Shown one piece after another: positions 43,090 through 47,027 of a DNA stretch of 64,000 bases (the stretch's first letter is position 1; the number at the start of each line of letters is the position of its first letter). The notes beneath the pieces are model-generated. The model ran no database searches. It worked only from the letters and a program-made list of their open reading frames with translations, and was not told the DNA's origin. This DNA is from Candidatus Korarchaeum sp. (lineage in GTDB: Archaea; Korarchaeota; Korarchaeia; Korarchaeales; Korarchaeaceae). Both the position numbers and the translations under genes were made by a program. The stretch is from positions 83,714 through 147,713 of the forward strand of contig JAJHQZ010000003.1 of NCBI GenBank assembly GCA_020833055.1, written 5' to 3'.

Positions 43090-43290
43090 CAGAACTATCC
43101 TCCAATGCACCTTTTAATCTTTCCGGGCTCTGAATTATGGCAGTAATGATGAGTTTCTATCTATGAGGTTATTAAAATATTCTTGACACAATAACGCCCG
43201 TGTTTCTAAGTTTTTGTTTCTATTAGTAGTGAAATTCCTCACGATTATTACTGAAAATCATACTATAGCCTGTAGTTAATTATCATAACC

Positions 43291-43344
43291 ATAAAATTTA
43301 TAAAAAAATCTGGATATAGACTACATTAAAACTCTGGGGGTGAT
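43291..43344 (+). promoter_or_regulatory. Promoter and ribosome site of the bd-oxidase genes
   Basis: ATAAAATTTATAAAAAAATC (43291-43310) is a strong TATA region, and GGGGGTGAT (43336-43344) is a ribosome site 3 bases before TTG 43348. The 240-base gap to the divergent MFS gene is otherwise A/T-rich with nothing else convincing. Confidence 0.5.
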
Positions 43345-43347
43345 GTA

Positions 43348-43719
43348 TTGGACCTCGTTGGTCAATGGTTAGGTTACCCCGCCCCCCTAGATAGGATACT
43401 GTCCATCATAGGGATAGAGCTCCACTGGCTCATATTGCAGTACGTCCTCGGCTTGCCCCTCTTCATAATCCTCTCGCTACTGCTCTACGCGAGGAGAAGG
43501 GATGAGAAGTGGAATGAGATGGCCAGGACCATGACGAAGGCATTGGGCATAATATTCGCGGTAGGAGCCGCTAGCGGGACATTGAGCGAGTTCGGTTTGG
43601 TTTTAATATGGCCCAACTTACTCGAGGCTGCTGGTAGATACATATTCTTCCCCCTCTACGCTGAGATCTTCGCCTTCCTCATAGAGATAACCTTCATATA
43701 CTTCTTAGTGTTCGGATGA
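43348..43719 (+). CDS. cydA: Cytochrome bd oxidase subunit I (CydA), N-terminal part, ending at an in-frame TGA
   Basis: 123 residues from TTG 43348. It covers the first three helices of CydA: His26 in GIELHWLILQY matches the heme b595 ligand, and E106 and E113 in the third helix lie in the region of the conserved glutamates near the heme site. The frame stops at TGA 43717-43719, but the same frame continues for the rest of CydA. E. coli CydA reads FGWDR at this point; here it is FG, stop, WKK. So this is one gene interrupted by a single codon, not a natural short protein. The cause may be a recent mutation, a sequence error or recoding. Confidence 0.8.
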   Translation: MDLVGQWLGYPAPLDRILSIIGIELHWLILQYVLGLPLFIILSLLLYARRRDEKWNEMARTMTKALGIIFAVGAASGTLSEFGLVLIWPNLLEAAGRYIFFPLYAEIFAFLIEITFIYFLVFG

Positions 43720-43800
43720 TGGAAGAAGATAGGAGTTAGGGGGAGGCTGATCTTAGCATTCCTAGCTTTAACAGGAGCCTGGCTTTCAGGAGCCCTCATA

Positions 43801-44967
43801 ATGAGTGTGAACAGCTACATGGTCGCCCCCACTGGGATACAGGCTTCATATGATCCGATGAGCGGATGGAAGTACGATAAGGGATATCCAAAGGTCCTCC
43901 TAGTAGTCCCTAAGGAGATAGTAAGCGTATTGGATGTGAACAAGCTCTTATCTCTCGGCATGGAAGTTCTGGGAGAGAGAAACGAAGGCGTCGCTGTCCT
44001 ACTCCCATCTAAGATAGTATCCAAGCTCGCGAGTGAGTCCTGGAGTAACGTCAGAGTAGGGGATAGCGTACTCTCACTCGTAATAAAGGAAGAGGCCCTC
44101 GGAAGCGTTAAGGATCTCCTCGTGAAGGATATCGTCGATAAAATACTGACTAACACTGTTAAGAGCGTTGGATATACTATGGTCACCTTCCTCTCCCCGG
44201 TTTACGCCGGAAGCATATTGCATGCCCTGGGGGCAGCGATTACAGTGACGGGGTTCACTATATTCGGGGGCTACTCCCTACTACTCCTGAGATCTAGGAG
44301 CGATAAGAAGAAAGTCTATTATGTCAGTGGAATGAAGCTGGGGATCTTCTTGGGCTTGATCTTCATAGCTGTTCAAGGACTCGTTTTCGGGCACATCATA
44401 GGGACTGAGATAGCCTCATACAATCCCGAGAAATTGGCTGCAATGGAAGGTACTAGTAAAGAGATATTCAGCTTCAGCAGATCTCTAGGGATCGAGAGGA
44501 TCATGAGCTTCATAGCTTATGGGAGCTTCGAAGCTAAACTGCCTGATTACGATTCGATACCCCAAGATTATTGTACGCTAGCTGGAGCTGCACTCGACTG
44601 CAGGCCTCCTCTCATGCTGCACTACCTATACTACTTCAAGACTGGCTTAAGCATCCTCTTAGGCCTATATGCTTTGATCTCAGCGATATTAGTCATGAGA
44701 GGAAGCCTTTCACAAGCTCTGCTCAAAATAAACATTCTGACCCCTATAGTGGCCCAGATCATAAGTTTCCTAGGATGGGCCGTCAGGGAGATGGGGAGGA
44801 AGCCCTGGTCCATCTACGGCATAATGACTGTGGATGTAGCTCACACAGCTAACCCGGGAGATCCACTATCTTATGGCTTAATAGCTTTAATAGTGATTTC
44901 CGTGGCTCTAGCTCTGATATTAGCCGTTTGGAAGCTCCTTTACGTTCCATCAGTTAGGGAGGTGTGA
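43801..44967 (+). CDS. cydA: Cytochrome bd oxidase subunit I (CydA), C-terminal part
   Basis: Homology really begins at 43720, directly after the TGA; 43801 is only the first ATG and lies at the end of helix 4. Readable CydA features are ALTGAWLSGALIMSVNSYMVAPTG, a His in SILHALGA at the place of the second axial ligand, GTEIASYNPEKLAAMEG, and EMGRKPWSIYG in the C-terminal region. No other stop or frameshift is seen over about 415 codons. The Q-loop is short. The stop overlaps the next gene in GTGATCATGA. If translated alone from 43801 it would lack most of helix 4. Confidence 0.8.
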   Translation: MSVNSYMVAPTGIQASYDPMSGWKYDKGYPKVLLVVPKEIVSVLDVNKLLSLGMEVLGERNEGVAVLLPSKIVSKLASESWSNVRVGDSVLSLVIKEEALGSVKDLLVKDIVDKILTNTVKSVGYTMVTFLSPVYAGSILHALGAAITVTGFTIFGGYSLLLLRSRSDKKKVYYVSGMKLGIFLGLIFIAVQGLVFGHIIGTEIASYNPEKLAAMEGTSKEIFSFSRSLGIERIMSFIAYGSFEAKLPDYDSIPQDYCTLAGAALDCRPPLMLHYLYYFKTGLSILLGLYALISAILVMRGSLSQALLKINILTPIVAQIISFLGWAVREMGRKPWSIYGIMTVDVAHTANPGDPLSYGLIALIVISVALALILAVWKLLYVPSVREV

Positions 44968-46118
44968 TCATGATCCCGCAGGTCTACTTCATAGCTCTCG
45001 TTTTCGGCATACATATAGTGGCCGTTAATCTGGGGATAGCTCTCTCTACGATAATACCACTGCTGAAGAGGAAGGCCGATCTAACGAGGAACGAGAGGTT
45101 GGATGGAATAGCTAAGGGGATCTTCAGGATATATGCAGCTATATATGCGATAGCTGGAGTCATGGGGACTGCCTTCACAGTATTCCTGCTCAGCTTCTAT
45201 CCGGAGTTCATAGGGATCGCTGGAAACATAACACTGCTCCCATTCGGGATAGCGATACTCTCAATACTGGTCCACTTCCTAGCTATAGTGCTCTACTACT
45301 ACGGTTGGGACTCCTTCCCGAGATGGGCTCACCTCTCCTCCGGGATCCTATTAGCTATCACAGCATACACAATACCCCTGGGCTTCAGGCTGGTTTTCGC
45401 CTTCCTGAACACGCCAGCTGGACTTAAAATAGATGGAAAGCCCTATATAGATGCTTTCGAGGCCCTAACCAACCCGACTTTCGCGCCCCTCTACCTCAAG
45501 AGTATCTTCGGCGCCATAACGTTCGGCTCCCTCTTCATCTCAGCCCTGTCAGCTTATCGAATAGCTAGGGAGAGGAGTGAGGAGAGCTCCCAGATTTACT
45601 CTACTTCATTGAGGATAGCTGTAATAGGGACTTTCATAATGCTGATACTGGGCCCATGGTACTCCATGTCATTGATATCGACGCCGATGAAGTTCAACAA
45701 TATCTTCAGATCCTTCGGATGGGGATTAGGCGGAGCTGAGACAGTCGACATGAGCTGGCTCTTCCTGATCAAGATAATACTCATAGCTGTCCAGATATAC
45801 GCTATACTGAGACTAATGTTCGGTAACGTTAACTTCAAGCTCTCAGCTCTCGCAACGACATCGGCAGCTCTCACGATATTGACTGGAGAGTACCTGAATA
45901 TGTTCAGTCAGTACCCGTACTTCCTAGCTAATCTACCGATAGTAGCTGATAAGATACCTGAACCATGGAGGACAGTGCTGGGGAGAGCTCTATACCTGGA
46001 GAACGTTAGTCCACTGGCCAACGACCCCACACTGCTCTCAATAACAGCTCTCGGGGTAGCGATATTGCTCGCAGCGATAGGCTACTTCATATATGAAACG
46101 CTGATTAAAGGAGAATAA
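44964..46118 (+). CDS. CydA-like second subunit of bd-type oxidase (CydA')
   Basis: 384 residues with about nine hydrophobic helices. It does not look like CydB; the N-terminus GIHIVAVNLGIALSTIIPLL mirrors the first CydA helix with its His, and GPWYSMSL and ITLLPFGIAIL are CydA-like. Some archaeal bd oxidases pair CydA with a paralogous CydA' and lack CydB, and this fits. ATG 44964 overlaps the cydA stop, so the two are translationally coupled. It is intact. A T-rich terminator follows. The low conservation makes the CydA' name moderate. Confidence 0.7.
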   Translation: MIMIPQVYFIALVFGIHIVAVNLGIALSTIIPLLKRKADLTRNERLDGIAKGIFRIYAAIYAIAGVMGTAFTVFLLSFYPEFIGIAGNITLLPFGIAILSILVHFLAIVLYYYGWDSFPRWAHLSSGILLAITAYTIPLGFRLVFAFLNTPAGLKIDGKPYIDAFEALTNPTFAPLYLKSIFGAITFGSLFISALSAYRIARERSEESSQIYSTSLRIAVIGTFIMLILGPWYSMSLISTPMKFNNIFRSFGWGLGGAETVDMSWLFLIKIILIAVQIYAILRLMFGNVNFKLSALATTSAALTILTGEYLNMFSQYPYFLANLPIVADKIPEPWRTVLGRALYLENVSPLANDPTLLSITALGVAILLAAIGYFIYETLIKGE

Positions 46119-46120
46119 TC

Positions 46121-46137
46121 TCTCTTTTTCTTTTTTT
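46121..46137 (+). terminator. T-rich terminator after bd-oxidase genes
   Basis: TCTCTTTTTCTTTTTTT directly follows the CydA' stop codon on the coding strand and abuts the 3' end of tRNA-Leu on the other strand. Confidence 0.6.
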
Positions 46138-46139
46138 AG

Positions 46140-46226
46140 TGCGGGGGGTGGGATTTGAACCCACGCGGGCCTGACGCCCACCCGCCCCTCAAGCGGGCGC
46201 CTTGGACCTGGCTTGGCTACCCCCGC
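46140..46226 (-). tRNA. tRNA-Leu (anticodon GAG)
   Basis: Type II cloverleaf on the minus strand: acceptor GCGGGGG/CCCCCGC, anticodon stem CCCGC/GCGGG around TTGAGGG (anticodon GAG), long variable arm, and TPsiC GTGGGTTCAAATCCCAC. The discriminator is A; CCA is not encoded. Confidence 0.95.
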
Positions 46227-46262
46227 TCGAGCCTATATGCATCAACAGATTAAAAACGTTAT

Positions 46263-47027
46263 CTATATCTTACTGAGCAGCTCCCCGAGCTTCCCCTTAA
46301 GTTGATTCAATGCCTCACTGAATATCTCCTCCGGTCTCAGAGAACCAGTGGATTCATAGCTTATTATGATCCTGGATTCATCCCACCTCCTGACTATCTT
46401 ATCCGGGTTCCTGACCCTGCACCTCTCCAGAGCCTCCAAACATCCCTCGCAGAGGACTGGGTATTCTACTCTCGAAATTCCACCATCCAACTCGATGCAG
46501 CCAGAGCACTGGCTCAGATCACAATCTACTGGATCCTTCAGTTCGTAAATTGGCATGTAACTATAACCGACTGCTGCAGCCGGCGACCACTTGGAATGAT
46601 CCTTCCCTCTGCCGATCCTAGCTATAGCCTGGAACCTCAATTTCTGCCCTTTCCTCATCTTTATTATCGGTATCTTATCGTTAGCCGGATATATGAGGGG
46701 ATCCGAGGACTTGAGCTCCCCTGAATAGACTATCTCTATCGGATCCTTCGCCTTCTTCGACAATTCTAACACTACAGTCCTATTCGGATCGACCCTCACT
46801 ACATCTAAGCTCGTCTTGAGCGGTATCATCGCTAACCTATGCGCTATATATTCATCGAAGAAGGGCGTGGTGTTCTCAAAGAATATGACTTCGTCTATCG
46901 CGAAAGTCGGGACTTCTGCTATTATTGCCCTCCTTATCGAGTTCGCGAACGATGGAGAGACCCCCTCTAGGACCAGGAGAGTCCTTTGATCAGATAACTC
47001 AATCACTCTCACTTTCAAGCTCCTCAC
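46263..47027 (-). CDS. rpo3: RNA polymerase subunit Rpo3 (RpoD)
   Basis: 254 residues. Rpo3 with Rpo11 forms the alpha-like assembly platform of the polymerase. The dimerisation core is clear (GVSPSFANSIRRAIIAEVPTFAIDEV, LAHRLAMIPL-like IAHRLAMIPL). The inserted domain at about residues 165-205 has six cysteines (C169, C174, C177, C193, C196, C203) that may carry an Fe-S cluster, in a spacing unlike the Sulfolobus protein. GTG 47027 overlaps the upstream unknown gene by 29 bases. Confidence 0.95.
   Translation of the reverse strand: MRSLKVRVIELSDQRTLLVLEGVSPSFANSIRRAIIAEVPTFAIDEVIFFENTTPFFDEYIAHRLAMIPLKTSLDVVRVDPNRTVVLELSKKAKDPIEIVYSGELKSSDPLIYPANDKIPIIKMRKGQKLRFQAIARIGRGKDHSKWSPAAAVGYSYMPIYELKDPVDCDLSQCSGCIELDGGISRVEYPVLCEGCLEALERCRVRNPDKIVRRWDESRIIISYESTGSLRPEEIFSEALNQLKGKLGELLSKI

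Follow-up and report, generated by a model that had tools for sequence, protein, structure and literature searches.

An in-frame TGA, apparently from a three-base tandem duplication, interrupts cydA of a CydAA'-type bd oxidase in Candidatus Korarchaeum

The subunit I gene of a cytochrome bd-type oxidase, cydA, is interrupted by a single in-frame TGA in the stretch of Candidatus Korarchaeum DNA analysed here (64,000 nucleotides; the window). Alignment with related genes shows this TGA to be an additional codon and not a mutated Trp codon. The explanation is an ordinary one: one duplication event, whether genuine or an artefact, created a nonsense codon within an oxidase operon that was recently exchanged (or is chimeric). 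On balance we favour the reading that the TGA is a real, recent, lineage-specific nonsense allele. The features concerned are listed in Table 1.

Table 1. Features of the interrupted oxidase operon and its surroundings (window coordinates)
Feature	Position	Strand	Basis
cydA (cytochrome bd-type oxidase subunit I), one in-frame TGA	43348..44967	+	PF01654 when read through; uninterrupted ORF in G010
Truncated product, 123 aa, N-terminal helices only	43348..43719	+	ORF reading and profile match
Premature TGA from 3-base tandem duplication	43717..43719	+	GGATGATGG in the window vs GGATGG in G010
Downstream open frame, 388 aa, beginning inside the conserved protein body; no natural gene start	43801..44967	+	ORF and alignment
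cydA', second CydA-like subunit gene, intact, overlapping the cydA stop	44964..46118	+	PF01654, 89.5 bits; adjacency
Tract of ~98% identity to G010, within flanks of ~90%	43358..46342	.	Maximum-likelihood edges, dS
tRNA-Leu (GAG), right edge of the high-identity tract	46139..46226	-	tRNA match

The first-pass annotation had proposed that the frame from 43348 and the frame ending at 44967 are the same frame, broken solely by the TGA at 43717-43719, and this was confirmed. The frame starts with TTG, ends with TGA at 44965-44967 and contains no other internal stop. The read-through frame matched the Pfam family Cyt_bd_oxida_I (PF01654) with 221.3 bits against a cut-off of 26.2, and each half matched the same family separately (81.9 and 114 bits), so the two halves are one gene. 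A whole-genome search found a single cydA of this kind in the window's genome, with one TGA within the match; the continuous ORF of a functional cydA is thus broken at this codon. The ATG at 43801, named earlier as the nearest one downstream, is indeed the first of all ATG, GTG and TTG codons 3' of the premature stop.

The relatives used for comparison were CydA genes of the same genus and family found by a search of 61 genomes, and 17 such genes were aligned; one further relative from a contig search, apparently the contig of G005 since both the length and the match agree, adds no independent sequence. At cydA, the closest relative of the window's genome (1.39 Mb) is the closed genome G010 (1,590,757 bases), whose counterpart is an uninterrupted ORF of 538 aa that is 98.5% identical to the window's cydA, the gene differing by 30 substitutions. 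The alignment with archaeal CydA proteins showed that none of the 17 relatives, G010 included, has a residue at the TGA position, and all relatives covering the stop region have a single uninterrupted frame. In the longer context, TTCGGATGATGGAAG in the window stands against TTCGGATGGAAG in G010, three bases being tandemly duplicated as a perfect copy in a non-homopolymer context, with the placement of the extra bases ambiguous within 43714-43720. The comparison of GGATGATGG with GGATGG supports the earlier suggestion that a 3-base duplication created the codon. The first-pass annotation had also set FG-stop-WKK against FGWDR of E. coli CydA; the stop is in place, but the Trp in FGWDR finds its equivalent in the TGG immediately 3' of the stop, which makes the TGA extra. 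In a pattern search of the 61 genomes, the exact junction occurred only in the window's genome, and with two mismatches allowed it occurred in the other genomes at about the same frequency as a reversed control.

The protein otherwise has the features of the CydA family. H27, E106, E113, H292 and REMGRKPW are conserved in the relatives and aligned with solved bd oxidases, giving the helix-1 His, a further His beyond the Q-loop region, a pair of Glu residues in helix 3, and the GRQPW-like motif with its preceding Glu. The earlier statement that the heme ligands and the GRKPW motif are kept holds for His, Glu and GRKPW, but not for the Met that ligates heme b558 in solved bd oxidases (Met325 in 5doq): its aligned position is occupied by Lys in the window's CydA and in 17/17 relatives, an assignment that depends on the alignment. 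The Lys lies in a YYxK motif at 44610-44660 (protein residues 423-433). Because all 17 relatives carry it too, the alignment identifies the Lys as a trait of the archaeal family rather than damage, and heme coordination in the archaeal CydA subfamily may differ.

The gene that follows cydA is also CydA-like, and the two genes adjoin each other in the relatives as well, an adjacent CydA-like second subunit thus replacing CydB. This CydAA' arrangement is described for archaea in the passages of PMC7618691 and PMC9287336 that cite Murali, Gennis and Hemp (ISME J, 2021). No heme-copper oxidase (COX1) was found in the window's genome or in G010, which leaves the bd-type oxidase as the one oxygen reductase found among the two types searched for. 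Since the reference korarchaeote originates from a strictly anaerobic enrichment (PMC10469681), the loss of the oxidase is plausibly tolerable.

The operon also differs from its surroundings in its divergence from G010. Together, cydA, cydA' and the tRNA-Leu gene are ~98% identical to G010, while the window overall is ~87% identical. The edges of this tract fall within 43241-43431 on the left and 46210-46372 on the right, and the two-rate fit gained 136 in log-likelihood. In the tract dS is 0.063 and 0.055, whereas the contig median is 0.60 and the lowest value for any other gene in the window is 0.18. Strong codon constraint does not account for these low values, since the genes just upstream, among them a likely ribosomal protein L13 gene (40827-41300), have dS of 0.38-0.48. 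The pattern indicates a recent homologous replacement between related populations, or a strain chimera in the assembly. Both the exchanged (or chimeric) tract and the CydA-like identity of the second gene had been overlooked in the first-pass annotation. Two other stretches of the same contig, C3:94-960 (L088:94-960) and C3:46138-47493 (L090:6138-7493), have dS to G010 of 0.02-0.06; they hold one xylose-isomerase-like TIM barrel (PF01261) gene and two other ORFs in which no Pfam match was found.

The sequence 3' of the stop bears on the age of the lesion. Between the window's genome and G010, cydA has a dN of 0.006 and a dS of 0.063. With four outgroups used to assign the post-stop changes to lineages, seven synonymous changes and one nonsynonymous change fell on the side of the window's genome, and five more were unassigned. 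This 7:1 excess is what would be expected if the gene had been functional until very recently. No sign of relaxed selection or decay was found 3' of the stop, and the lesion is therefore either very recent or a consensus error. The claim that cydA has no other lesion stands, the gene having one internal stop only and no decay after it.

A search for other genes with a lone in-frame stop, as suggested earlier, covered the window's own contig (147.7 kb); among the ~150 genes compared with G010, no mid-gene stop was found besides that of cydA, a result that speaks against an assembly full of errors. The remaining stops on the list lie close to ORF ends, in extensions at the start, or in ORFs that probably do not represent genes: within the window, alignments place them in N-terminal extensions or ORF ends, and elsewhere on the contig they were judged by position, in the first or last few residues. 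The stop in C3:33885-34346 was rejected as a gene lesion, the dS/dN pattern being that of a probable non-gene ORF. The assembly consists of 25 contigs with an estimated contamination of 0.55% and may be metagenomic.

Under the favoured reading, replication slippage would have produced the 3-base tandem duplication, and with it the TGA, in cydA of a CydAA'-type bd oxidase, and the duplication would be present in the cells beyond the assembled consensus. Translation would stop after 123 residues, and the oxidase would not be made, or would be non-functional, in carriers of the allele. The mutation would be young, lying inside an operon that this lineage and a G010-like strain exchanged recently, where decay has not yet begun. 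A minority allele or a rare consensus error could instead lie behind the TGA, the assembly being fragmented and perhaps metagenomic. An error of consensus or assembly is the one competing explanation that we consider a serious possibility, if clearly a less probable one: cydA of the population would be intact, and the three bases, perhaps together with a chimeric tract, would come from assembly or polishing. The gene shows no other decay, the assembly is fragmented, and the lesion lies in a tract of sharply different divergence from G010, where an assembler could merge co-occurring strains; the missing second lesion and the missing relaxed selection fit such an error equally well. However, no other gene of the 147.7 kb has a comparable lesion, and the two further low-dS stretches suggest that exchange is natural. 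To our knowledge, a short-read consensus error is not usually a 3-base tandem duplication outside a homopolymer, which also counts against an error. Recent loss and sequence error, both offered in the first-pass annotation, therefore remain, and its third option, readthrough of the TGA as Trp, is contradicted, like reassignment, by the tRNA set, the stop usage, the missing selenocysteine machinery and the lack of the codon in every relative.

Readthrough or recoding of the TGA, by Trp, selenocysteine or a suppressor tRNA, would place a single additional residue between helices 3 and 4. The downstream frame is open and under purifying selection, and a helix end could accommodate such an addition; however, 0/17 relatives have a residue there, and on the window's contig TGA serves as a stop more often than either other stop codon, ending 94 of the 153 ORFs of at least 100 aa and also cydA itself. 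A single tRNA-Trp was found; it has the anticodon CCA and contains an intron, and all 45 tRNA matches in the genome were examined without finding a UCA anticodon. This tRNA-Trp (G000:C2:86062-86157; L079) is a weak tRNA match (34 bits); its anticodon loop carries an intron of 22 bases, and one pair of the acceptor stem is mismatched. There was no tRNA-Sec match above the family cut-off, the best ones in the window's genome coinciding with ordinary tRNAs; SepSecS was not found in this genome but was detected in the control, Methanocaldococcus jannaschii; and the SelB-like matches, all below cut-off, are probably ordinary elongation and initiation factors. UGA is thus an ordinary stop on the contig, and neither the UCA-bearing tRNA-Trp of a UGA=Trp code nor the tRNA-Sec and SepSecS pair of archaeal selenoproteins was found in the genome. 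The cydA stop is no evidence for a variant genetic code; we consider recoding very improbable, and a full-length CydA with one added residue, made by efficient readthrough through an unrecognised mechanism, slightly more so. Least probable of all is a natural split of cydA into two proteins, each with its own start. The ATG at 43801 opens a frame of 388 aa and a purine-rich GGGGGAGG lies at ~43739-43746, but the second frame would begin in the middle of a conserved fold, ~50 bases past the purine-rich stretch. Separately started proteins in related strains, which the first-pass annotation had named as speaking against a broken gene, were not seen; the frame is continuous in every relative covering the region.

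If the lesion is real, it catches a korarchaeote-like lineage in the act of losing the one oxygen-reducing oxidase detected in it, soon after this lineage and a neighbouring species exchanged the operon; the loss would then bear on how such organisms deal with oxygen. Should the lesion be an error, it warns against inferring recoding from one-off stops in fragmented assemblies.

Compared with recoded TGA genes (selenoproteins and UGA=Trp codes), the window's cydA is alike in having an in-frame TGA inside an open frame, but differs in that the codon corresponds to no conserved residue, the genome shows no UCA anticodon or SepSecS, and TGA is the main stop. With the archaeal CydAA' oxidases it shares the order of cydA directly followed by a CydA-like gene as well as the conserved His and Glu positions and GRKPW, and departs from them in the premature TGA; from the bacterial enzymes, with their Met heme ligand, all 18 sequences differ in the Lys at the aligned position. 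A further likeness is to recent nonsense pseudogenes formed by short tandem duplications, which also have a single lesion, a perfect copy of the neighbouring bases and an otherwise conserved gene; the orthologues are free of the lesion, and if the duplication read here from assembled sequence is also present in the cells, the window's cydA would show no essential difference from them.
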